NCBI RefSeq assembly: GCF_000317085.1
Contig: NC_019702.1
Coordinates: 774,394 to 838,393 of the forward strand
DNA from: Synechococcus sp. PCC 7502
GTDB taxonomy: Bacteria > Cyanobacteriota > Cyanobacteriia > Pseudanabaenales > Pseudanabaenaceae
Direction of reading: 5' to 3'
DNA: 64,000 nucleotides
The position numbers and the translations under genes are program-made. Below, one piece after another: positions 43,225 through 60,184 of the stretch (positions are counted from its first letter, which is position 1; every line of letters begins with the position of its first letter). The notes beneath the pieces were generated by a model that was not told the DNA's origin, did no database searches, and saw nothing but the letters and a program-made list of their open reading frames with translations.

Positions 43225-43301
43225 GGTTCATCAGATTTTAGGGGCAAGATTAATTTGGTAATTCGATTAAAGCTAGTTAATAAACTAAACTAATATTTTG
43301 A

Positions 43302-43790
43302 TTAATCTAAACCGTTAATCCCAGCCCCTGCTTTGATGACGGCAGCAACCGAGTCAATATTATTTTTAATACTTGCACTACCATTTGCTGCATTTAAAAG
43401 AGTTTCAGCCGCCGCCCGATTAAAAGTGGAATTAGGGGATACAACCGTGAGAGTACCGGGGTTTATGGTTAGAGTTTGAACCACATTACCCACACCTGCG
43501 GTAGTACCATAAGTAGGACTAACAGTAACACTACCGCTAAAAAAGTAACCTTGGGGTAAAACAGTTTCGCCAGACACCGAGCTAGTATAACCTCCACTAC
43601 TGATGGTTTGGATAACACCGTTGGTGATGGTTGTGGTTATAGTGGGATTGATAGTCAAGGTTGAGGAACCTGAAGCACTAGCAACTTGGGCAGAGACAGA
43701 ATCATAACTAAATAACGTAGAACCAGCCGCAAGCCCCAGTAATATCATGATTTTTAACTTGCGTTTGGTGTAAATAAATTGGTTTAGCAT
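43302..43790 (-). CDS. Secreted paralogue C (162 aa) with C-terminal AGAGINGLD motif
   Basis: 162 residues with a signal peptide (about 12-35, cleavage near VSAQ). The mature protein is Ser/Thr/Gly-rich and beta-prone, contains GYTSSVSGETVLPQGYFF and STFNRAAAETLLNAA, and ends AAVIKAGAGINGLD. The same three blocks occur in the two genes upstream, so this is a divergent member of the family. It sits 77 bp before the 882-aa gene on the same strand. I do not know a function. Confidence 0.65.
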   Translation of the reverse strand: MLNQFIYTKRKLKIMILLGLAAGSTLFSYDSVSAQVASASGSSTLTINPTITTTITNGVIQTISSGGYTSSVSGETVLPQGYFFSGSVTVSPTYGTTAGVGNVVQTLTINPGTLTVVSPNSTFNRAAAETLLNAANGSASIKNNIDSVAAVIKAGAGINGLD

Positions 43791-43919
43791 AGTTAAAGAT
43801 TGTTAATTATTAAAATTAAAGGCTAAAGTTTTCTCAAAAAAATAGGAGATACGACTTAACCATACCTCCATGTACTTTTACCACCTAATTTCTTAAGTAA
43901 ATATAGAACTTAAGAATAA

Positions 43920-44468
43920 TTAGTCTAAGCCGTTAACACCAGCACCAGCTTTGATGATCGCAGAGATGAAGTCGATGTTTGCAGAAGCATAGGTTGTACC
44001 AGCAGCAGTCCCGTTACCAGTAGTTCTACCATTATCAACCAGAAAAGTAGTACCCTGAGCAATTGCAGCAGCAGCATCGGTTAAGACTCTAGCAGCGGCT
44101 TGATTGAAGGATGCAGGGAAAGTAGTTGGAGCAACAGCACCACTGGAAGCAACTTGCAAGGACTCAGCAGCAACTGAGAAACCTTGTAAGGAGAATTGAG
44201 GAAGAACGATCACATCGGGGGTAGCCAAAGAAGCCTTGGCACCAAATGGGTTTGCCGCTGTAGGGTTAGTAGAACCAGTCAAGACAGAACCAGCTGTACC
44301 GAATTGAAATCCAGAAGCAAGAACAGACTCGCCACTTGTGGTGGAAGTAAAACCAGCAGGGGAAATAAAGGTGGCAGAGCCAGAAATAGAACCGGGGGTA
44401 CCAGCAAAGGCAGGTGCGGCAAAGGCACTAGCGATTACGGTGACAAGACCTAAAGTTGATAGACGCAT
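43920..44468 (-). CDS. Secreted paralogue B (182 aa) with C-terminal AGAGVNGLD motif
   Basis: 182 residues starting MRLSTLGLVTVIASAFAAPA, a signal peptide cleaved near AFAG. Shared blocks: SGSATFISPAGFTSTTSGES, PQFSLQGFSVAAESLQV, ASFNQAAARVL, and the end FISAIIKAGAGVNGLD. It is closest to the next gene upstream, and even the leader AGAGAATCTCC just upstream of the two start codons is conserved, which indicates a recent tandem duplication. Confidence 0.7.
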   Translation of the reverse strand: MRLSTLGLVTVIASAFAAPAFAGTPGSISGSATFISPAGFTSTTSGESVLASGFQFGTAGSVLTGSTNPTAANPFGAKASLATPDVIVLPQFSLQGFSVAAESLQVASSGAVAPTTFPASFNQAAARVLTDAAAAIAQGTTFLVDNGRTTGNGTAAGTTYASANIDFISAIIKAGAGVNGLD

Positions 44469-44542
44469 TAGAGAATCTCCAAAAAATGTAATTAAGTTAG
44501 TTGAATTAAGGCATCATCACTCAATGGATGAAAAAGCGGAAA

Positions 44543-45193
44543 TTAGTCTAAGCCGTTTACACCAGCGCCAGCTTTGATGATGGCAGAAATGAAGTCGATG
44601 TTGCCAGAAGCATATACTGTACCTGTAACAGAACCACCAACTACTACGTTTCCACTACTATCAAGACGAACAGTTCTACCATTAGCAGCCAAGATAGCAA
44701 GATCACCAGCAGAACCATCTCCAGCAGTTGCTCGAGCAGCATTAGCCAAAACAATAGCAGCAGCTTGATTAAAGGATGCAGGAGTAACTGTTGCAGTAGG
44801 AGCGACACTAGAACCTATTGATAATGATTCAGCAGCGATCGAGAATCCTTGTAAGCTGAATTGAGGTAACACGTTCACTGCAGAACCATCGGTAGCAGGA
44901 AGAGTAGCACCAGCATCAGGATTGGTTAAAGATGCCTTAGTACTAAATGTGGGAGTAGCCCCACCAGCAACAGCAATAGAATTAGTGACTGTACCAGAAC
45001 CATACAATGTGGCTCCTAGGGTATTATAAATCAGTCCAGAAGGAAGAACTGATTCACCACTTACGGTAGAGGTAAACCCAGCAGGGGAAATAAAGGTGGT
45101 AGAACCAGAAATGGAAGCAGGTGTTCCAGCAAAGGCAGGAGCAGCAAAGACACTTGCGATTAGGGTAATTAAGCCTAGATTTGATAGACGCAT
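44543..45193 (-). CDS. Secreted paralogue A (216 aa) with C-terminal AGAGVNGLD motif
   Basis: 216 residues, first gene of the cluster. The signal peptide MRLSNLGLITLIASVFAAPA is nearly identical to that of paralogue B. Shared blocks are GFTSTVSGESVLPSG, PQFSLQGFSIAAESLSIGS and the end IDFISAIIKAGAGVNGLD. About 35 extra residues in the middle (Gly/Ala/Thr-rich) account for the length difference. Low-complexity and lacking cysteine, it looks like a secreted structural or surface protein. Upstream lie over 300 bp of AT-rich DNA with the likely promoter. Confidence 0.7.
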   Translation of the reverse strand: MRLSNLGLITLIASVFAAPAFAGTPASISGSTTFISPAGFTSTVSGESVLPSGLIYNTLGATLYGSGTVTNSIAVAGGATPTFSTKASLTNPDAGATLPATDGSAVNVLPQFSLQGFSIAAESLSIGSSVAPTATVTPASFNQAAAIVLANAARATAGDGSAGDLAILAANGRTVRLDSSGNVVVGGSVTGTVYASGNIDFISAIIKAGAGVNGLD

Positions 45194-45699
45194 TAGAGAA
45201 TCTCCAAAAAATTTTGTAGTTAGTAGTTTTGGCTACGAAATCATACTATCTGAACAAATGCAACTTGTCTATTGCTAAATGAACAAAATATAGTAGTTTT
45301 TTTAAGAATTTTTAAGAGATTGTGATCTAAAACACAACTAATTCTTAATTTATTTAATTGCCAATAGCATTAGTTAGTTCTTAGTATTTTTTAGACTCAA
45401 TTTTAGAAATTCAGCCGTATTTGAATGTTTTTAATGATTAAAGTAAATTAAATCCATAGATCGTCTTGTATTTTGACAGAGTAAAAACTCATATCTATTT
45501 AATATTTAATTAACCTTTTAGAAAATAATAATATTTAGTTAATAATTGAGTTTGGAGCTACAAATTTATATCACAAATTAGACTTAATTCAATATTCAAT
45601 CTGGGCTGGGTATGTGTTTGGCAGGGCAATCGTACAAGTTTCTTAACAAACCAGTCAACATTTTTTAATAAAGAAGAAATGCTAAAGACTAAACGGGAG
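45194..45699. other. AT-rich intergenic region upstream of the secreted-paralogue cluster
   Basis: About 500 bp, strongly AT-rich, with many TTAATTAA-like tracts and no convincing gene. It must contain the promoter for the leftward cluster. The right part merges into the decayed transposase. No inverted repeat or terminator stands out. Confidence 0.4.
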
Positions 45700-49248: not shown

Positions 49249-49645
49249 AGTTATTTATTTAAGTCCAGTCTTGGCGGTCTAGTCAGTTATGATCTATTTT
49301 AACCTATGTGCTACCCCCCCCGCCTTGAATCAAGATAAACCATGGCTATAATTCTTAGCTGATTGGTACTATATTTTGTCCCCTTTTCTTGTAAAAAATC
49401 CAACAATTATCCACAATGCTCCAATAGCAGCGAGCACATATATACCCTTGTACCTGAACCATCACAGTAAATTATCAAAGAAATTATCAAGTACTTTAAA
49501 TGCCCATGCGCCTAACTACGAATAGACTGATCACTGCGGCAATGGTATAAGTATTTCCCTTGATTTCATAAATTAGATATTTGCAGATAATTTACGAATT
49601 GACTATATTTCCAATTCCCAAAAGATTCTTAAACAGAGTTTTAAA
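49249..49645. other. Intergenic region between gyrA and the integrated element
   Basis: 397 bp of chromosomal sequence, AT-rich apart from a run of eight Cs at about 49313-49320. It should contain the gyrA promoter. No gene is seen. The integration site begins directly after it. Confidence 0.4.
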
Positions 49646-49703
49646 ATGGGGGAAGAGGGACTTGAACCCTCACGACTTATAAGGTCAACGGATTTTAAGT
49701 CCG
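49646..49703. repeat. attL: left 58-bp direct repeat (tRNA-Leu 3' fragment)
   Basis: Identical over 58 bp to 60100-60157. It carries the 3' part of tRNA-Leu from the anticodon stem to the acceptor end and lacks the 5' part, so it is not a tRNA gene. It is the original chromosomal 3' end displaced by integration. Confidence 0.92.
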
Positions 49704-49812: not shown

Positions 49813-50118
49813 ATGACAGCAATCACACTATCTACAGACATCCCATCAAACATCACAACACTTGAGCAGCTCCATGTCTGGACATCGGTAGCTTTAGCAA
49901 CCTGCAACCCAACAAAGCAGATAGTCGAGTCAGAAAATAGTACCGAATTTACTTGTCGATATTTTGTTGCACTTGCCTATGACGCAACTACTAGGTGTGT
50001 TGATCGAATAAGCATCCCTATCGATCCGACTTATGTATCAGACAAGAGTAAAAAATTCTGGATGTTTGCCAATCCTATTTCAGATACTGCCTTACCATCA
50101 ACTTTCAAAGCTAACTAG
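49813..50118 (+). CDS. Hypothetical protein, first gene of the unknown block
   Basis: 101 residues, from an ATG with AAAGG 13 bp upstream. The product is beta-prone with three cysteines (TCNPTK, FTCRYFVAL, RCVDRISIPI) and no TM. The stop TAG abuts the ATG of the next gene (TAGATG), so the two are translationally coupled. I recognise no family. Its place at the head of a block ending in lysis genes suggests a structural or virion role, which is inference only. Confidence 0.55.
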   Translation: MTAITLSTDIPSNITTLEQLHVWTSVALATCNPTKQIVESENSTEFTCRYFVALAYDATTRCVDRISIPIDPTYVSDKSKKFWMFANPISDTALPSTFKAN

Positions 50119-52164
50119 ATGTTTGCAGCCCCTGCACTGCCATTAGTTCCACCCGTGCCGGTTGTGCCAACGCCGACGGCACCAAATTCTAATTATTCTT
50201 TGCCAGATTTACCACCAATCCCAGCCCCTAATATCCCCGGTCTATCTAACTTAACCAGTGGCACTCAAAAGCTATTAGATTCTTTATTTGGGACACCGCC
50301 GGCGGCAGCCCCAACATTGCCAAGAGACTTTAAGGATCGGAAGTTTATAAGTCCTGCTCCTGCAACCCCTGATAGTTTAGGAAAATTACCATTTAGAGGC
50401 GGTCAAAGTGTAGGCGTTAACTACACTGTAAATTACAGTTATATATATACTCGCCCCGGTATTAACCCTCAAAGTGGGAGTACTGCAGTAGTTGTAGTAG
50501 GTCCACTAAGCGCATTTGAAGTTATTGACGGACCGCCTGACTCATCCCAAATCTCACTAAAAGTAGTTGATAGGGATGGCACAAGATATTTTCTGACTAG
50601 GACTGGTAAAGCAGTTGATCCAGCAATTACACTAACCGTTACGATAATTAGTATTACCAGAAATGATAACCAACCTGATACAGGGGGGAATCCGCCTGCT
50701 GTTGGTGGTAATCCTGCTGGTGTAGGTAATCAATTAACACCACCACAGGTTTATGGTTTTGGTCCGACTACAGCCCCGCCAGTTCCAAAGACAGCCCCTA
50801 AAAGGAAACCACCCATAACACCAAGACCTGATGAGAAACCAGACGAAAGAATAAAGCCATTCCCACGCCCCGGCACACCTAACGAAAAACCTAAAAATCC
50901 ACCTGCTAAACCAGAAACACCAAAAGAACCACCAGCTAAACCGGGAGAGAAACCGGGGACACCTAAAGCTCCACCTTTAGACCCACCAACATTACCCCCT
51001 GTTAGCCCACCTAAGCCAGATACAACACCTAAACGAGAAACACCGTCTAAACCTGCTGACGACCCAAATACTAAACCAGATGCACCAACCAAGCCACTAG
51101 ATAACCCTAAGATAGATCGTCCTGAGACTCCAAATCAAAGACCCGATCCTGTTAGGATTCCTCCATTAATTCCTTCTCAGACTCCCCAAGAGCCGCAGCA
51201 AGACCAAGAAAAAGAGAAGGTAGGAATTCCACCTGCTTTACCAACTCCACCCACAATTACCCCGGGTACAAACCAACCAACTCCACCAACAATTATCTCA
51301 CCTCCACAATTACCACCGGGTAGTAATCCACCGGGGTCTAGTAATGGTGGTCAAATCACTACAGGTAATCAAAATTCTGGAAATAACAACAATAATTCTA
51401 ATAATGGCAGTGGTCCAGGGATTGATGAAGTTAGCCAACAAATTAAGGATTTAGACCGCAAAATTGGCTCACTCACGGGTAATAACGTCACCAACATCAC
51501 TAATATCAATAATCAAGGCATGACCTGCCAAGAGCTTAAAGATTGCCTATCTGGTAATACAGAGACTGCCAACATCAAGAAGTTCAAACAATGTAACTTA
51601 ACCACTGGGGAACCTGAGTTTGAGACTGTGCAGATACAGGTTAACAAGGGTGATAAGGCTGCTATTGAAGCTATTGCGGAAAGATTAGCTAATGTTGAAG
51701 GTCAACAATGTAAAGAGTGTGATGCTGTTGCACTAGTTCCTGAATGGTGGCAAGTCAGAACAGGTCAAAGACCACAATTAGTTGTGAGGTTTCAAAATAT
51801 TAAAGAGGATGGGACTATTGGTGATTCCAAATGGTCATTATCTATTCCACATTACAACAGAGATCAAAATTTTAAACCTAGGTTTCCTAATTATAAAAAA
51901 GGTGATATTCAAGGAATATTAGTACTTGATGATAATAGTAAGGTTATTGTTAATTGCTTTAATATAACTGAAGCAAAAAGGGTAATAGCGGCTATAAAAC
52001 AATATATTGATCCAAACTTTTTAAAAAATAGTTATGAAAAGTATGGTGAGAGAAAAGGTAACGCATTTAGTCAAGTTCAAGTTAAAGCTATATTTGCAAA
52101 ATATTTCCCAGATGGACAAAAAAATACTACTCCTGAATGGACTATAAAGTTGGTTGGAGATTAA
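50119..52164 (+). CDS. Proline-rich, multi-domain protein (681 aa), candidate adsorption/virion protein
   Basis: 681 residues in three parts. An N-terminal region (1-190) has Pro-rich segments and a beta domain (GVNYTVNYSYIYTRPG onward). A very Pro/Lys-rich linker (about 200-420) is followed by an Asn/Ser/Gly stretch. The Cys-containing C-terminal part (about 430-681) has a coiled-coil segment SQQIKDLDRKIGSL, CxxC-like QQCKECD and a compact domain with LVPEWWQVRTGQRPQLVV and SLSIPHYNR. No signal peptide or TM. The domain-linker-domain plan resembles surface-attachment proteins of phages (inference); no family recognised. Confidence 0.6.
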   Translation: MFAAPALPLVPPVPVVPTPTAPNSNYSLPDLPPIPAPNIPGLSNLTSGTQKLLDSLFGTPPAAAPTLPRDFKDRKFISPAPATPDSLGKLPFRGGQSVGVNYTVNYSYIYTRPGINPQSGSTAVVVVGPLSAFEVIDGPPDSSQISLKVVDRDGTRYFLTRTGKAVDPAITLTVTIISITRNDNQPDTGGNPPAVGGNPAGVGNQLTPPQVYGFGPTTAPPVPKTAPKRKPPITPRPDEKPDERIKPFPRPGTPNEKPKNPPAKPETPKEPPAKPGEKPGTPKAPPLDPPTLPPVSPPKPDTTPKRETPSKPADDPNTKPDAPTKPLDNPKIDRPETPNQRPDPVRIPPLIPSQTPQEPQQDQEKEKVGIPPALPTPPTITPGTNQPTPPTIISPPQLPPGSNPPGSSNGGQITTGNQNSGNNNNNSNNGSGPGIDEVSQQIKDLDRKIGSLTGNNVTNITNINNQGMTCQELKDCLSGNTETANIKKFKQCNLTTGEPEFETVQIQVNKGDKAAIEAIAERLANVEGQQCKECDAVALVPEWWQVRTGQRPQLVVRFQNIKEDGTIGDSKWSLSIPHYNRDQNFKPRFPNYKKGDIQGILVLDDNSKVIVNCFNITEAKRVIAAIKQYIDPNFLKNSYEKYGERKGNAFSQVQVKAIFAKYFPDGQKNTTPEWTIKLVGD

Positions 52165-52239
52165 CCACGAACTGAACTTACTTGTCTTTAACTATTAGAA
52201 AACATAGGCTTTAGATGTTCACTCACACATGAAAATCTA

Positions 52240-52749
52240 ATGTCAACATTTACCCCCGGAACTGGTGGAACTTTAGAATCTACTAATTTACCATCTGCTT
52301 TTCTTGAAGTATCAAGAGTTCTAGTTCAAGCCGAAAATACCCGTAATGCTGCTAACTCTGGCGTAGCTCCTATTAACAACATCACTGCTAGTTTAAGTAT
52401 TGATGGTGGAGTTGCTTCCATAGCCGCTACTATTCCTATTGCTCCAACTTTATCTACCAGTGGAGTCCCAACAATTGCCGCTCAAAATTATCTCGGTTCA
52501 ACTTACACAACTTTTGCTCCCGGTACAGGTGGAACTCTTAAAAGCACTAATACCATTGCCGCATTTTTAGAAACTGCTCAATTATTAGCCAGTGCAGAAA
52601 AAGCAGTAACCCCTGTGGAAAATCAGCCTAACAACATCCAAATTACCTATGATTTGGAAGCTTCTCAAGCTACTATTTCCGCTAATTTACCTTTTAGTTC
52701 CACATCTGTTAGCGGTGATATTACTATTGAAGCTCTCGACTACTTGTAA
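52240..52749 (+). CDS. Duplicated-repeat protein (169 aa), candidate structural protein
   Basis: 169 residues consisting of two tandem copies of about 82 residues. STFTPGTGGTLESTN near the start matches TTFAPGTGGTLKSTN at about 89-103, and QNYL at about 81-84 matches the terminal LDYL. Each unit has a helical segment rich in Ala (LEVSRVLVQAEN, LETAQLLASAEK) followed by alternating beta residues ending in AATIPI or SANLPF. No Cys, no TM. This suggests a multimeric building block. Family unknown to me. Confidence 0.6.
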   Translation: MSTFTPGTGGTLESTNLPSAFLEVSRVLVQAENTRNAANSGVAPINNITASLSIDGGVASIAATIPIAPTLSTSGVPTIAAQNYLGSTYTTFAPGTGGTLKSTNTIAAFLETAQLLASAEKAVTPVENQPNNIQITYDLEASQATISANLPFSSTSVSGDITIEALDYL

Positions 52750-52805
52750 ACCTAATTTCAGGAATTTAATTAACTCAAATTAGCAAAAAATAAGTAGGTG
52801 AAATT

Positions 52806-53228
52806 ATGGCAACAACAACTAAAAGAGCAAAGGTTGGACCTAGAGCATCGGTTGTAATTGGCACTGTTAAAAAGACCATTGGCGGTAAATCTAAAACCGT
52901 TAAATTGGTTAGTTACATGGCTAAATCTACTGCTGATTTCTTTGGATTCAAGACGGAAGCGGTAAAGAGTACGGCGACTAAAAGCGCAGGTGGTAAGACC
53001 GTAGCTCCACGTTTAATTCGTGGCTCTATCGGTGCTGGATCGATCAAGGTTCCAGCAGGCAAAACTAGCGCAGCTAAGGGTGGTGTGCAAAAATTTAAGC
53101 AGATTCCTATCCCTAGCGGTGCTACTAATGTCCAGATTGAGGCATTTCTCAAGACTGCCACTAAAAACAAGCCTACAAGCTTTGTTTCGAGGGATGGTAG
53201 GACTTATGCAGTAAGCGGTACTAAATAG
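52806..53228 (+). CDS. Basic protein (140 aa), candidate nucleic-acid-binding or capsid component
   Basis: 140 residues with high Lys content (more than 25 Lys) and few acidic residues, giving a very basic protein. The N-terminus TTTKRAKVGPRASVVIGTVK and repeated Lys-Ser/Thr-Ala patterns precede a small domain with PSGATNVQIEAFLKTATKN and VSRDGRTYAVSG. A putative ribosome-binding site AAGTAGGTG lies upstream. The stop overlaps the next start. Basic small proteins in this position often bind DNA in virions; the assignment is inference. Confidence 0.55.
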   Translation: MATTTKRAKVGPRASVVIGTVKKTIGGKSKTVKLVSYMAKSTADFFGFKTEAVKSTATKSAGGKTVAPRLIRGSIGAGSIKVPAGKTSAAKGGVQKFKQIPIPSGATNVQIEAFLKTATKNKPTSFVSRDGRTYAVSGTK

Positions 53229-53530
53229 TGTTTATCTATAGGCAAAGTTTCACTAGGCTTGATTCTTTGCCTATTTATATTCCTGTTTTAATCGACAGCG
53301 ATCGCATTGTTTTTGGCATTGAAGTAGAAAATCAGCTACGAACATGGAACCGTGCGGGTACTTTAACCAGAAAGGTTTTATTAGATGGGATTGGTTTTGC
53401 TGTCGAAGAGCCTAAAACCTTAGCGATCGCTAAAAATATTTTAGAGTTCCAACCAGAGGGTAACTATCGGCTCGAATTTACCCCTTTTAAGTGGATTCAA
53501 AATTACACCATATCAATCTGGAAGTTATGA
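53228..53530 (+). CDS. Hypothetical protein (100 aa)
   Basis: Begins at a GTG that shares its first base with the preceding stop (TAGTG). The 100-residue product is beta-rich and slightly acidic (LPIYIPVLIDSDRIVFGIEV, LEFQPEGNYRLEFTPF). No TM and no recognised family. It overlaps the following gene by four bases (ATGA). Because of coupling on both sides it is surely part of the block; the function is unknown. Confidence 0.55.
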   Translation: MFIYRQSFTRLDSLPIYIPVLIDSDRIVFGIEVENQLRTWNRAGTLTRKVLLDGIGFAVEEPKTLAIAKNILEFQPEGNYRLEFTPFKWIQNYTISIWKL

Positions 53531-53775
53531 CAAGTTCCCAAATCCCAGAACCACAAAATTCTAAAGCTATTCAGTTCCATCAAATCGCTAATATCATCTT
53601 AACTGTGATTTTGGGAGGTGCTATAACATCATGTGCATCATTCATAATTCAGACAAATAACTCTCTGATTTTGCTATCGGAAAAGATGCAAGTTTTATCA
53701 AGTGTGACATCTAAACTATCGGATAAGATAGATAAATTTGATGATAGGTTGAGAACTCAGGAGATGAGAAAATAG
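53527..53775 (+). CDS. Small single-TM protein with coiled coil, holin/spanin-like
   Basis: I place the start at the ATG at 53527, overlapping the previous stop as ATGA; a GTG 36 bases earlier is in frame but less likely. The 82-residue product has a cytoplasmic N-terminus, one TM (IANIILTVILGGAITSCASF, about 20-39) and a coiled-coil tail (LLSEKMQVLSSVTSKLSDKI). This topology directly before the endolysin gene is what one expects of a holin or membrane-linked lysis helper. Identity is inferred from position. Confidence 0.6.
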   Translation: MTSSQIPEPQNSKAIQFHQIANIILTVILGGAITSCASFIIQTNNSLILLSEKMQVLSSVTSKLSDKIDKFDDRLRTQEMRK

Positions 53776-53777
53776 TT

Positions 53778-54407
53778 ATGATTAATCTTTTAGACGTAGT
53801 TAAATACTTTAAGTCACAATCTCATCAAATAAAGGCTTTGCAGATTCTCAATAACAAGATTGCGAGTTCTTATCCTGAACTATTAGATGATTCTCAAGAA
53901 TGGGTAAAGGAATGGAGAAGTGTTAATAATTTCTCTTTGACTGATTCAAAAAGCGAAGGTATCAATTCTAATCTTAAAGCTTTCCTTTTAGCGATAAGAG
54001 TACATGAGGGAACTAGTGGAAGTGATGGGTATAATTTGATTTTTACGGGTAAATATCTTTCTGATTTTTCCGATCATCCCAGACAAGAATATTGTGCTGG
54101 GGATTTATGCAGTGATGCTGCTGGGGCATACCAATTTCTAAGCACTACATGGGATGTGGTCAAAAAAAGGTTAAACCTTAGAGATTTTTCACCACAAAAC
54201 CAAGACCTTGGGGCAATTGAGTTAATTAAAATGCGGGGTGCTTATGATTTTGTGATCAAGGGTGATTTACCCAATGCGTGCGATCGCTGTTCTTGGGAAT
54301 GGGCAAGTATGCCAGATCGTAATGGTAATGGCAGATATGGACAACCTAACTGTAGCTTTGCTGAGTTTAGGAAATTGTTTATAAAATATGGTGGTAAGCC
54401 TTTATGA
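53778..54407 (+). CDS. GH104 (lambda R-type) endolysin
   Basis: 209 residues. From about residue 70 it follows phage lambda R lytic transglycosylase: LAIRVHEGTSGSDGYNLIF with catalytic Glu77, then FSDFSDHPR-like DFSDHPRQEY, AGAYQFLSTTWD (115-126), LRDFSPQNQDLGAIELI and the C-terminal DRCSWEWASMP. It cleaves the peptidoglycan glycan strand. The N-terminal about 65 residues are an unrelated helical extension. No signal peptide, so a holin is needed. It starts 2 bp after the TM protein and overlaps the next gene by 4 bp. Confidence 0.88.
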   Translation: MINLLDVVKYFKSQSHQIKALQILNNKIASSYPELLDDSQEWVKEWRSVNNFSLTDSKSEGINSNLKAFLLAIRVHEGTSGSDGYNLIFTGKYLSDFSDHPRQEYCAGDLCSDAAGAYQFLSTTWDVVKKRLNLRDFSPQNQDLGAIELIKMRGAYDFVIKGDLPNACDRCSWEWASMPDRNGNGRYGQPNCSFAEFRKLFIKYGGKPL

Positions 54408-55169: not shown

Positions 55170-55526
55170 TTACCCCACGCTTTCTGCGATCGCATACAAT
55201 CTATCAGAAACAGCCCGACCTAATAAAGCTAAATCCTTTGCAGGCATATATCTCACCTCTGCAACAAGTCTTTCTACAGATATATTGGAATCTCTTTGAC
55301 TATCTTTAGAGTTTCCTTCAAGGTAATCCATTAATTCAGTAAGTGTATAACCGCCCTCACTAGCTATTTTAGAAAGGTTCCCAGACCCCGGGGTTACTTC
55401 TCCATTTTCCCAAGATTGAATAGCACCATGAGTTACCCCCAAACGCTTAGCAAATTCTTTTTGAGTTTGATTACCCCTTAGTTGCTTTACTAAGTTCGCA
55501 AGTTTTAATTTTGACGAGTGGTTCAT
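55170..55526 (-). CDS. Xre/Cro-C1 family repressor
   Basis: I place the start at the ATG at 55526 (NHSSKLKLANLVKQLRG). An upstream extension is open but runs through the operator and promoter DNA. The 118-residue product has the HTH_3 domain QTQKEFAKRLGVTHGAIQSW, ENGEVTPGSGNLSKI (about residues 20-55) and a C-terminal helical part. It ends 2 bp before the CAP-domain gene and is divergent from the CopG-like gene across a 16-bp palindrome, the classical lysogeny-control layout. Confidence 0.82.
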   Translation of the reverse strand: MNHSSKLKLANLVKQLRGNQTQKEFAKRLGVTHGAIQSWENGEVTPGSGNLSKIASEGGYTLTELMDYLEGNSKDSQRDSNISVERLVAEVRYMPAKDLALLGRAVSDRLYAIAESVG

Positions 55527-55657
55527 AGGTATCCACAAATACACATAAACATATATATGTTTTACCACATTTACACATATCTGTATTTGCGAAATTCTGT
55601 ATTGACACATTTATGTATATGCGTTAATAAATATATATCAGTCTAAGAAATATATTT
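55527..55657. promoter_or_regulatory. Divergent lysogeny control region
   Basis: 131 bp between the repressor and the rightward genes. It has a perfect 16-bp palindrome AAACATATATATGTTT at 55547-55562, and a good rightward promoter: TTGACA (55602-55607), 17-bp spacer, TAATAA (55625-55630). Further imperfect ACAYATNTRTGT-like copies lie between (around 55569-55582 and 55605-55622). The palindrome is about 20 bp from the repressor start, where autorepression would act. Confidence 0.65.
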
Positions 55658-56422: not shown

Positions 56423-58705
56423 ATGTTCAAAATTACAGACCATATCGAATTTGACCCCAAGGGCAGAGCATCATGCCCAGTATGTGAAGCAAAGAAAGGT
56501 AAACCAAATAAAAATCTTGCATTGATACCTAATAGTGATGGTGCTTATAAATGCCACAACACATCATGTACTACAGATCTGATTAGAGAGGCAATAGGAC
56601 AACCTAAAGACCAGATTATTCCCAGTGCGATCGCTAAGGCTAAACCAATCAAATACCATGATCAAGAACGCATAGATATAAACAATGAAAAGCTGTTTAA
56701 CGATTCAAAAATAGCTAAAAAGTGGCTCACAGATAGAGGTATTAGCTTATATCTCATACAAAAATTCAAATTAGGCATTGCACTCAGAGAAATCAAAAAA
56801 TATGAACAAGGTAAGTTAGTTGAGAGTAAAGCTTTACCCTGTATCACAGTTCCCTATCAGTACCCAGAAGGATACTTACAGAAATACTTTGTAGCTCCTT
56901 GGCTAACCAGTGAAGAACGATTAGATACCAGAATGATTCAAGATAGTGGGCTTGCTGCTAGATGGTGGTTTACCCAAAAATCAGACTCTAAAGAGGTTTG
57001 GATCTGTGAAGGTGAATGGGATGCAATGTTGATGTCTGAAATTATTAATTGTTCTGAAATTGCTGATTGTGATGTGGCAACCTCAACGGCTGGATCGGGC
57101 AATGTTCCCCAAGACCTTAGACCTCTTGACCAATACGATCACATATTTATCTGGTATGACCTCGATCCTGCTGGAGAGGCTGGAGCCGAAAAATTAGCAA
57201 AAGCAATTGGTAATAGAGCTAAAATTGCCACGGTTCCATATACGGTAGACGCTAAGTTAGGCTGGGATATTAGCGATGCAATAGTTAATGGCTTTAGTTA
57301 CTCTGATTTTGCCAAGGCTAGGGATAATGCTAAGTGTGTTGAAATTCAACCAACGCCAGGAAAGAATAAATTAGCAGATAGACTAATAACCACTGCCGAA
57401 CTAATGGCACGGGCAAAGGATTATACCGATTGGCTGATTGATGAAATATTACCCATCAATGAACTAATACTTTTAGCAGCTTCACCAAGAGCGGGTAAAT
57501 CTTTGATGGCAATGAATATTGCTCAGTGTGTGGCAAGTGGAACTAATTTTTTAGATCGGCCCGTAACACAAGGTTCAGTAATCTATGTCCAGTGTGAGGA
57601 CTCAGAAACTAAGACGAAACAGAGAGCGATCGCCCAAGGTTGGGATGAGAATCTCCCAGTTTACTGGTTAGAAAAATTCAAAATGTCCGAGCTCGCTGAA
57701 CTAATCGAACTGGCAAGAAAGATCGAGCCAAGACTAATCGTATTAGATACTTTGTCCAGGGTGCGTGATGATAACACCACAGAGTCAAGCGCAGAGATGT
57801 CTAGAATTTTGGAACCACTCCAAGAATTTGCCCGTGATCACAATTGCTGTATCCTACCAATTCACCACACAGGCAAAATTAAATTAGAAAATGCCGATGC
57901 CTTAGATGTTTTTGACACTATTAGGGGTAGCAGTGCCATCCGTGCTACTTGCCGTGGAACCTTAGTAATTGCGGCAAATGATCAGGGTTATCGTCTCTGT
58001 GTCGAAAACGGGTATAACAAGCAAGACTTAAAAGTTAGCCTAGACCTAAACTCTCTCACATGGAAACTTTTAGGTAAATGGGGCGTACAAGCTGATGCCT
58101 CCCAATCTGATCAGATATTGGGATTTTTAACAAAAGTACAGTCTGCAACCCTTGAACAACTGTATGAATTTACCAACATAAATAAAGCAAGTTTGTACAA
58201 GGTACTCTCTAGGCTTGTTCATGATAATAGAATCTCCAAAACTGGCTCTAGGAAAGCAGTTGTGTATTCAAAACTGCAAATCGAGCAGCCTAAAACCCAA
58301 TCTGACATATCAGACATGTCAGATACGTTGTCAGATTCCGAAATCCAGACAGAGACAAGCTTAGAGGTGTTATCTGACAAAAATAATATTTTATATATAT
58401 CTGACAACATGGTTAGTAATTTATCAACACATATATCTAACACAGGTGAAGCAAATTTGTCAGATTGTCAGATAAGTACCTCAAATCAAGACACAGCAGG
58501 CGATACCGAATCTGACAAGCAATCTGACAAACCCGTTTTTGTCAGATACAAAGTAGGTTGTCAGGTTGAAATCTTGACTGGTAGGTTCGCTGGCATGAAG
58601 GCTGAAGTCATTGATATACAAGGCGATGAGGTTGAGGTTAAGGCTAAAAAATGGGTGGTTACTCGTTGCTATCCAACTATGTCGTTAAAACTACTTGTCA
58701 GATAA
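56423..58705 (+). CDS. Primase-helicase replication protein (zinc ribbon, TOPRIM, RecA-like helicase, KOW-like tail)
   Basis: 760 residues: zinc ribbon (C18, C21, C44, C49), TOPRIM primase core (EGEWDA at 196-201, DLDPAGE at 246-252), RecA-like ATPase with Walker A SPRAGKS (354-360), Walker B IVLDT (439-443) and HHTGK sensor (481-485), then a winged-helix-like segment (about 550-600). A Ser/Asp-rich linker (about 610-700) encodes the iterons, and the last about 45 residues resemble a KOW domain (GRFAGMKAEV). It should prime and unwind DNA for replication, in the manner of satellite and plasmid primase-helicases. I could not assign it to a named subfamily. Confidence 0.85.
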   Translation: MFKITDHIEFDPKGRASCPVCEAKKGKPNKNLALIPNSDGAYKCHNTSCTTDLIREAIGQPKDQIIPSAIAKAKPIKYHDQERIDINNEKLFNDSKIAKKWLTDRGISLYLIQKFKLGIALREIKKYEQGKLVESKALPCITVPYQYPEGYLQKYFVAPWLTSEERLDTRMIQDSGLAARWWFTQKSDSKEVWICEGEWDAMLMSEIINCSEIADCDVATSTAGSGNVPQDLRPLDQYDHIFIWYDLDPAGEAGAEKLAKAIGNRAKIATVPYTVDAKLGWDISDAIVNGFSYSDFAKARDNAKCVEIQPTPGKNKLADRLITTAELMARAKDYTDWLIDEILPINELILLAASPRAGKSLMAMNIAQCVASGTNFLDRPVTQGSVIYVQCEDSETKTKQRAIAQGWDENLPVYWLEKFKMSELAELIELARKIEPRLIVLDTLSRVRDDNTTESSAEMSRILEPLQEFARDHNCCILPIHHTGKIKLENADALDVFDTIRGSSAIRATCRGTLVIAANDQGYRLCVENGYNKQDLKVSLDLNSLTWKLLGKWGVQADASQSDQILGFLTKVQSATLEQLYEFTNINKASLYKVLSRLVHDNRISKTGSRKAVVYSKLQIEQPKTQSDISDMSDTLSDSEIQTETSLEVLSDKNNILYISDNMVSNLSTHISNTGEANLSDCQISTSNQDTAGDTESDKQSDKPVFVRYKVGCQVEILTGRFAGMKAEVIDIQGDEVEVKAKKWVVTRCYPTMSLKLLVR

Positions 58706-58724
58706 GGAAATTAATATGTCAGAT
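58300..58724. repeat. Iteron cluster: twelve exact TGTCAGAT copies, candidate replication origin
   Basis: TGTCAGAT forward at 58317, 58329, 58458, 58466, 58540, 58696 and 58717; reverse (ATCTGACA) at 58300, 58372, 58399, 58510 and 58522. Near-copies at 58309 and 58559. An AT-rich tract lies at 58379-58400 between two reverse copies, and a DnaA-box-like TTATCAACA is at 58421. Copies occur in all three reading frames and continue into the next gene, so they are a DNA, not a protein, repeat. Confidence 0.8.
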
Positions 58725-58925
58725 GAAATTTTAACCACCAAGGAAATGGCAAGTAAACTCAAGGTTTCTACCGATCATTTACTTGATTTATGCAAAGATG
58801 GCACTCTACAGCCCCAAATTCACTTTATTGACATCAGGAAACAAAGTAGTTCTAAACCCTGCTATAGATTCAAAATGCAAGCCTGTTTAGAGCGTTTTGC
58901 TATCCCTGCTGATGTTCGGAGCTAG
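58716..58925 (+). CDS. Excisionase/AlpA-like helix-turn-helix protein
   Basis: 69 residues from the ATG at 58716 with AAGGA upstream; the frame also opens at a TTG seven codons earlier. The pattern ILTTKEMASKLKVSTDHLLD followed by LCKDGTLQPQIHFIDIR resembles the MerR-like/HTH_17 fold of excisionases. Its 3' end overlaps the end of the integrase gene on the opposite strand by 39 bp. Placement beside the integrase supports a recombination-directionality role. Two iterons overlap its start. Confidence 0.65.
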   Translation: MSDEILTTKEMASKLKVSTDHLLDLCKDGTLQPQIHFIDIRKQSSSKPCYRFKMQACLERFAIPADVRS

Positions 58926-60038
58926 TGGGCGATCGCTTCGATTCATCAACAGATCGTAAGCTTTTTGATGATGGCGATCGCTAATCCAATGATGATATTG
59001 CTCTGAGTGTACCTGTACTGAATGTCCCATTTGTTGAGCAGCTAGGCTAATATCCAGTCCAAACTCTAAAGTCCTAATAGCCCAACAGTGCCGTAGGTCA
59101 TAGGGTTTAAAGCTAAGTTCATATCTTGAAAATGCCTTAGTAACTCTGCTACCTAACTCTGTATTATTTTTGCCTGTTACCACTGGGAGTTTAATATTTT
59201 GCAAATCAAAATCTACTGCCCATTCAGGGTAACAAGCCCATACCCTACGGCGATCAGTTTTAGTCCCATCTGTAATTGTGGCGATCGGGAAGTCTGCAAA
59301 GTCTAAGTAAAATATTTCGTGAGGTCTTAACCCGTATGTTGCCAGTACACCATATACCCATTGCCATTGTGGATTTTTAATTTTATAAAAGGTTTCGGCA
59401 ATCAAGCGATCGTCTGGTAAGTTTCTGGGTGTTGCTCGCTTGGGGGAGTAGTTGCCGCTAAGTTGGGATAAGTCAATATCGATGTGAGCAAACTTAGCTA
59501 AGGCTCCTAGAGCCATGCAATATCGCTTTCTAGTTCTGGTATCTGGGGTAGTTGTAAGAACCAAGTTCTTAATTATCTCTGCATTAAGGGCTTGATTTGG
59601 CAGATGTTTAAATACTTCTAGGTAATCTTTTGCCCATGTAGTTTCAGATTTTGGTGATCGCTGTCTGCGAGTGAAATAATCTTGCTCAAATTTTGTTACC
59701 CAGTCTTTCCCAAGTTCAGTATTTATAGCCTGTTTTAGGTAAGGTTCCCAAGAAAATTGCTCTAGGTCTAATAATGCCCCTATCTTTCTTGCCTGTGCCT
59801 CAGCAGTAGATACACCAGCCCCGTTAGCATGAACCCCAAGAGCTAATTTTTGTTGATGTTGTTGTTTTATTTTTGAAGTTGGCTTAGGCGGGAAAGTTGC
59901 CTGTAAATATAGCCTATTTCCTTTCAATATGATTGATACGCCGACTTTTGCCGCTTTTAATCTGCCATTTGCCTGTGAAATTTTACCCTCAATCACGGTT
60001 CTTAAATTTTGCCTTAAAAAAATAGCGGTATATACCAA
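58887..60038 (-). CDS. int: Tyrosine recombinase (integrase)
   Basis: 383 residues from a TTG at 60038; a GTG at 59996 (residue 15) is an equally plausible start and fits the family N-terminus. Catalytic residues: Arg238 in GLRPHEI, Arg316 in YDLRHCWA, His339 in MGHS and the nucleophile Tyr348 in SEQYHHW. The first position of the HxxR box is Tyr313. N-terminal residues 15-60 form an arm-binding-type domain. It lies against attR, in the usual position for a tRNA-targeting integrase. It should insert and, with the adjacent small HTH protein, excise the element. Confidence 0.93.
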   Translation of the reverse strand: MVYTAIFLRQNLRTVIEGKISQANGRLKAAKVGVSIILKGNRLYLQATFPPKPTSKIKQQHQQKLALGVHANGAGVSTAEAQARKIGALLDLEQFSWEPYLKQAINTELGKDWVTKFEQDYFTRRQRSPKSETTWAKDYLEVFKHLPNQALNAEIIKNLVLTTTPDTRTRKRYCMALGALAKFAHIDIDLSQLSGNYSPKRATPRNLPDDRLIAETFYKIKNPQWQWVYGVLATYGLRPHEIFYLDFADFPIATITDGTKTDRRRVWACYPEWAVDFDLQNIKLPVVTGKNNTELGSRVTKAFSRYELSFKPYDLRHCWAIRTLEFGLDISLAAQQMGHSVQVHSEQYHHWISDRHHQKAYDLLMNRSDRPLAPNISRDSKTL

Positions 60039-60069: not shown

Positions 60070-60099
60070 ATCAAGATATTGGATTTACTGGATTTTAAG

Positions 60100-60157
60100 A
60101 TGGGGGAAGAGGGACTTGAACCCTCACGACTTATAAGGTCAACGGATTTTAAGTCCG
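60100..60157. repeat. attR: right 58-bp direct repeat
   Basis: Identical to attL at 49646-49703. It supplies the 3' part of the tRNA-Leu gene, so the tRNA remains functional after integration. Confidence 0.92.
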
Positions 60158-60184
60158 CAGCGTCTACCATTCCGCCACTCCCCC
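60101..60184 (-). tRNA. tRNA-Leu (anticodon UAA), intronless
   Basis: 84 nt on the minus strand, acceptor stem GGGGGAG/TTCCCCC with discriminator A. The T arm has GAGGG-TTCAAGT-CCCTC, and a long variable arm (class II) is present. The anticodon loop CTTAAAA gives anticodon UAA. In many cyanobacteria this tRNA carries a group I intron after U34, but here the loop is uninterrupted. CCA is not encoded. The 3' 57 nt belong to the attR repeat. Confidence 0.93.

Follow-up and report, generated by a model that had tools for sequence, protein, structure and literature searches.

The locus analysed here raises the question of what a dense cluster of 8-mers is doing inside the end of a primase-helicase gene. 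It also bears on a wider open question, namely how an initiator and its origin can switch specificity together without dying in between, given that a change in the reader has to be matched simultaneously at about ten sites. We analysed a window of 64,000 nt from Synechococcus sp. PCC 7502 (GCF_000317085.1, NC_019702.1, positions 774,394-838,393, forward strand), and all coordinates below are positions in this window. A first-pass annotation had proposed that the cluster is an iteron origin nested in the gene of its own initiator.

The iteron array and the gene that contains it

The gene (56423-58705, plus strand) encodes a 760-aa primase-helicase that matches phrog_239, DNA primase/helicase, at 2.4e-40. 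The protein comprises, in order, zinc-finger-like cysteines (C18-C21-C44-C49, which are invariant), a Toprim domain, an AAA_25 helicase, a winged helix, a linker, and a KOW-like C-terminus, and thus combines, within a single polypeptide, a Toprim primase domain with a RepA-like helicase of the RecA fold (Pfam AAA_25, 2.9e-30; Toprim_2, 5.5e-5). Profile and fold comparison indicated that the helicase core is RSF1010 RepA-like and the Toprim part T7 gp4-like. In an AlphaFold2 model of modest quality (ten input sequences, pLDDT 68.7, pTM 0.37), the winged helix occupies codons 559-617 (58097-58273, plus strand; pLDDT about 80), with K593 in the recognition helix (588-600) and R610 in the wing, and its assignment also draws on profile matches to the winged-helix proteins AspA and Z-alpha and on the covariation described below. 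Codons 620-707 (58280-58543, plus strand), which the iteron array encodes, form a linker predicted to be disordered (pLDDT about 25-35), followed by a small beta domain at residues 714-760; the KOW-like part of this domain, codons 714-739 (58562-58639, plus strand), lies beyond the main array, and its KOW match is below the curated cut-off.

Twelve exact copies of TGTCAGAT, seven forward and five reverse, fall within 58300-58724 and occupy all three reading frames, as the first-pass annotation had reported. The left outer block (58300-58336) consists of iterons at 58300-58307 (minus), 58309-58316 (minus, one mismatch), 58317-58324 (plus), and 58329-58336 (plus). Across a 35-bp facing-pair spacer (58337-58371) lies a segment (58372-58406) with an inward iteron at 58372-58379 (minus), an AT-only tract at 58380-58400, and an iteron at 58399-58406 (minus). 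Two abutting plus-strand iterons (58458-58473) open the right arm and are followed by a 36-bp facing-pair spacer (58474-58509) and the right outer block (58510-58547), with iterons at 58510-58517 (minus), 58522-58529 (minus), and 58540-58547 (plus). Two extra plus-strand iterons (58696-58724) bear out the earlier observation that the copies reach beyond the stop codon: that at 58696-58703 overlaps the stop codon itself, and that at 58717-58724 runs into the opening codons of the following gene, whose ATG is at 58716. The tract between two copies, previously described as AT-rich, is 100% A+T and represents a probable unwinding element.

Outside the array, only two copies of TGTCAGAT occur in the 64 kb, with 1.69 expected per whole window from dinucleotide shuffles. 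Genome-wide counts were obtained by pattern search, and in the 3.58-Mb genome a same-strand pair within 30 bp was found at the array alone. Chance as the source of the array was ruled out by the shuffles, the genome search, and the comparison of homologues below. Coding sequence contains 11 of the 12 iterons, 10 of which fall in the linker at codons 626-709, coinciding with the disorder in the model, and the coding cost appears to be tolerated because what the array encodes is an unfolded linker. Eight of the 11 coding copies encode Ser-Asp, since TCA-GAT and TCT-GAC both read SD, and the earlier claim that protein repetition does not explain the array therefore needed testing. When codons were shuffled synonymously with the protein kept, any 8-mer reached at most five copies (mean 2.7), compared to 10 observed in the same coding stretch, indicating that the repetition is a DNA feature and is not driven by the protein. 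The conclusion of the first-pass annotation consequently stands, although its argument from reading frames is weakened by the recurrent Ser-Asp.

The array belongs to a 10.45-kb element that is integrated at the 3' end of tRNA-Leu(TAA) and bounded by 65-bp direct repeats, attL (49639-49703) and attR (60093-60157), which are 98% identical; attR overlaps the tRNA gene (60101-60184, minus strand). Downstream of the primase-helicase gene are an excisionase-like (Xis-like) HTH_17 gene (58716-58925, plus strand; phrog_2907, HTH_17 below the curated cut-off) and a tyrosine integrase (58887-60038, minus strand; phrog_1, profile match below the curated cut-off), and a CI/Cro-like repressor, identified by profile and PHROG matches, lies upstream (55170-55610, minus strand). 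The left half of the element (49813-54407) carries an endolysin-like gene and genes without PHROG matches (101, 681, 169, 140, 100, and 94 aa). Two of the latter families, those of 101 and 681 aa (clusters c4 and c14), recur beside the same primase-helicase in other cyanobacteria, which suggests an undescribed group of small temperate phages or satellites. Outside the element, small neighboring genes at 43300-45212 share common repeats (91 nt, 63-87%; 178 nt, 84%) and are apparently tandem paralogues.

Array layout and motif switching among relatives

For comparison, about 26 homologues were drawn from cyanobacterial genomes; searches at the family, order, and phylum levels added none. Every homologue with a complete 3' end carries clustered 8-mers in the same region, mostly a different 8-mer (TGTCAGAC, TGTTGAAT, TGTTGAAC, TGTCCAAT, TGTTGGAG/TTGGAGAA, TGTTGGCG, TGTTAGGA, TGTTTGAG, or TTGATAGG), and in one homologue from a different lineage (L038) TGTCAGAT appears again, as TGTCAGATGA. 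In L042, an array is absent for the reason that the contig ends before its position. The first-pass annotation had counted homologous genes that lack the 8-mer and keep the linker as evidence against an origin; most homologues do lack TGTCAGAT, but this agrees with that expectation in letter only, as another 8-mer stands in the same array. The equally sized stretch directly upstream of the arrays shows no cluster, with two to four copies of any 8-mer, except in L039, where the array begins further upstream.

The layout is shared by most homologues: an outer block, a facing pair about 36 bp apart, directly followed by an AT-rich tract, a middle of at least about 100 bp, a second facing pair of about 36 bp, and an outer block, with 36 bp as the mode of the facing-pair spacer. 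AT content in the 20 bp that follow the left arm is 74%, compared to 47% for the gene, and exceeds that of the gene in 25 of 25 homologues. Sequence conservation within the 36-bp spacer is inseparable from conservation of the encoded protein and was left out of the evidence. In most of the cyanobacterial set, about 160-400 nt of the reading frame remain between the main array and the stop, and the C-termini past the array vary even among close relatives. Two further features of these loci were observed. One homologue (L049) has a frameshifted reading frame, yet its iteron array, from position about 3150, has the usual layout. Six others (L009, L024, L037, L040, L045, and L046) carry AAGTGATCA / TGATCA palindromes between the arms, possibly a second type of site.

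We placed the arrays on a tree built on the first 640 residues. The gene in this window (L006), with 12 copies of TGTCAGAT and none of TGTCAGAC, is sister to L007, with 2 of TGTCAGAT and 11 of TGTCAGAC. L046, with 11 copies of TGTTGAAT and 2 of TGTTGAAC, is placed inside the TGTTGAAC clade, and L043, which carries TGTCCAAT, falls in the TGTTGAAT group. From these counts on the tree, it follows that arrays switch motif as a unit, in nearly all of their copies. A scan of all aligned winged-helix columns for covariation with the motif found that T versus C at base 8 is split by exactly one column, R610 (n=12) versus Q (n=6), and that C versus T at base 4 is likewise split by exactly one, K593 (n=4) versus E/N/T/V (n=22). 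For each base, random splits of the same size yielded any separating column in 26 of 2000 trials, a frequency to be read with the facts that the covariation was found post hoc and that the sequences are related and hence non-independent. Despite both, each base switched about three times on the tree, and we therefore regard the case that the winged helix reads these repeats, as these sequence patterns suggest, as strong though not final.

Repeats within the gene are also present in relatives carried by the plasmids pANACY.03 and Nostoc HK-01 plasmid3, as well as in two other AAA_25 genes (L017 and L018). The GC skew of the two plasmids, both of them mosaic, has its extremes away from the arrays and is uninformative as a separate line of evidence for an origin. 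A search for close relatives in IMG/VR and phage records gave partial, distant matches only. More distant relatives on viral contigs (21-29% identity over the matched part) often carry similar short repeats, many of the TGTNNNNN form, across or just past the stop codon. The simplest reading is that the cyanobacterial origin was internalised, such that an origin at the gene end would have become coding once C-terminal sequence was added past the repeats. Viral TGTTGAAT/TGTTGAAC pairs 35-38 bp apart were rejected as chance matches, with none of the examined loci having five copies in 600 bp.

Several observations lie beside this series. Distant AAA_25 primase-helicase genes on IMG/VR contigs L124, L126, L141, L150, L151, and L153 have TGTNNNNN-type repeats that span the stop codon or directly follow it, and such repeats could offer a general means of locating origins in these phages. 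In separate Toprim-type Pseudanabaena genes of about 1000 aa (L025, 8503-8729; L026, 8545-8690), the 3' ends contain about eight copies of GAATCAAA, making these arrays a candidate for another nested origin. Finally, L072 (G017:C11, 14285-15178 and 18320-20479) holds two related Toprim-bearing replication genes about 3 kb apart, one of them about 1000 aa.

Probable origin function and alternative readings

Based on the data presented above, the array at 58300-58547, together with the copies at 58696-58724, is very probably the replication origin of the tRNA-integrated element, with the product of the primase-helicase gene very probably acting as the initiator. The proposal of an origin nested within its initiator gene thereby gains support from the conserved position and layout, the predicted winged helix preceding the linker, the covariation of two residues, and the repeats at the 3' ends of phage genes. 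In the mechanism we envisage, the winged helices of several protein copies would bind the TGTCAGAT sites; the two arms, with sites facing across about 36 bp, would seat RecA-fold helicase rings beside the AT-only tract; the tract would open and the helicase would then load; and the zinc-finger/Toprim part would prime synthesis. Every step from binding through melting and helicase loading to priming, as well as origin activity itself, is modelled on SaPI Rep, Cch2, and lambda O and inferred by analogy with these systems.

Three other accounts of the array have to be weighed. Plasmid iterons often serve also as control sites, and the extra copies overlap the start of the next gene, so binding of the initiator to the array might serve no more than copy-number control, partition, or autoregulation, with replication starting elsewhere. 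We consider this unlikely, given that the sites lie at the 3' end, distant from the promoter of the gene, that the AT-rich tract keeps a constant position within the array at 25 of 25 loci, and that the equivalent 3' repeats in SaPI and Cch2 are origins or putative origins (PMC7581432). It is also quite improbable that the array consists of arm-type or excisionase sites of the integrase/Xis module that shape attP recombination and have no part in replication. The integrase and Xis-like genes adjoin the array, two copies overlap the xis start, and many homologues likewise end close to an integrase and a tRNA; however, the array goes with the helicase gene, while the integrase clusters vary, and in L082 a cluster c4 gene, and no integrase, comes next. 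This account is weakened in particular because similar nested arrays occur in plasmid genes without an annotated integrase within about 4 kb, and because the iterons covary with the winged helix of the helicase itself.

The remaining account, in which a protein linker rich in Ser-Asp gives rise to the repetition as a side effect, is hardly credible. Ser-Asp is indeed what most coding copies encode (8 of 11), in a linker modelled as disordered, but the synonymous shuffles fall far short of the observed copies (at most 5 versus 10), other reading frames and the sequence beyond the stop also hold copies, and at the same place homologues with other motifs encode different residues, such as LNS and QQ.

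With the array read as the origin, we lean towards a broader interpretation, that of a mobile-element family where a single open reading frame encodes primase, helicase, and DNA reader and also contains the target array, and where replicon identity may evolve by rewriting all 8-mer copies in step with single reader residues (base 4 with K593, base 8 with R/Q610). Through the addition of varied C-termini, the array would have been internalised from the gene end, and each gene would amount to a complete replicon, compatible with the others, whose specificity code can be read. In relation to the question raised at the outset, the putative reader and its sites lie in one gene, and apparent intermediates exist, namely the sister pair (12/0 versus 2/11) and a one-base switch in a close clade with two residual old copies. 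The putative two-residue code is direct and testable, suggests a way in which such elements and plasmids may coexist, and might provide orthogonal replicon parts for cyanobacteria, where few Rep systems are known.

Comparison with known systems

In phage P4, the alpha protein alone provides origin recognition, helicase, and primase activities, using an archaeo-eukaryotic primase (AEP) and an SF3 helicase, and its sites at ori-crr lie outside the gene. The comparison with P4 alpha drawn by the first-pass annotation holds as a functional parallel, in that recognition (here predicted), helicase, and primase are joined in one protein, but not as kinship, as the present protein is built of Toprim and RecA-fold domains. 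Its putative sites, in addition, lie inside the gene.

Origins within initiator genes have been described in other systems. In lambdoid phages, ori-lambda places iterons and an AT-rich tract in the middle of the O gene, and iteron number changes protein length (PMC7466680). Iterons and AT-rich tract thus lie inside the initiator gene in both cases; however, lambda O is neither a helicase nor a primase, whereas the putative reader, helicase, and primase are here one protein, and the present array is two-armed and made of 8-mers. No search of the primase-helicase linked it to O. The Rep boxes of pSK41 are central in rep (RepA_N, 319 aa), and the part encoded by the origin is an interdomain linker (PMC5703833), similar to the linker-coding iterons found here. 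In contrast, pSK41 Rep belongs to another family, and no RepA_N domain was matched by Pfam in the primase-helicase.

For SaPI Rep and SCCmec Cch2, which are initiator helicases, a C-terminal domain recognises, as established or proposed, short repeats at the 3' end of their own gene (PMC7581432). This resembles the predicted DNA-binding winged helix that follows the helicase core here, with the array at the 3' end of the gene, but their repeats are downstream of the gene and not inside it, and the helicases are of the Cch/Cch2 type as opposed to Toprim plus AAA_25. Covariation of reader domain and origin, which swap as a module, is known for V. cholerae PLE RepA, with two specificity groups (PMC8263062); there, however, the origin is intergenic with iterons of about 30 bp, and the protein has a RepA_N domain. 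Among cyanobacterial replicon proteins, CyRepA2/CyRepA1 combine the Toprim-related DUF3854 with a DEXDc helicase (PMC10899382, PMC10079941, PMC9978351), and the described Reps (CyRepA1, CyRepA2, and CyRepX) differ from the primase-helicase in domain make-up; a word search found no use of "iteron" in these three papers. In the literature searched, which under-represents subscription journals, we found no description of a nested array combined with a primase-helicase reader. Origins nested in a gene have precedents in lambda O and pSK41 rep, and helicases that read the origin through a C-terminal domain have one in SaPI Rep; the combination of the two, the motif-switching series, and the putative two-residue code appear to be new.
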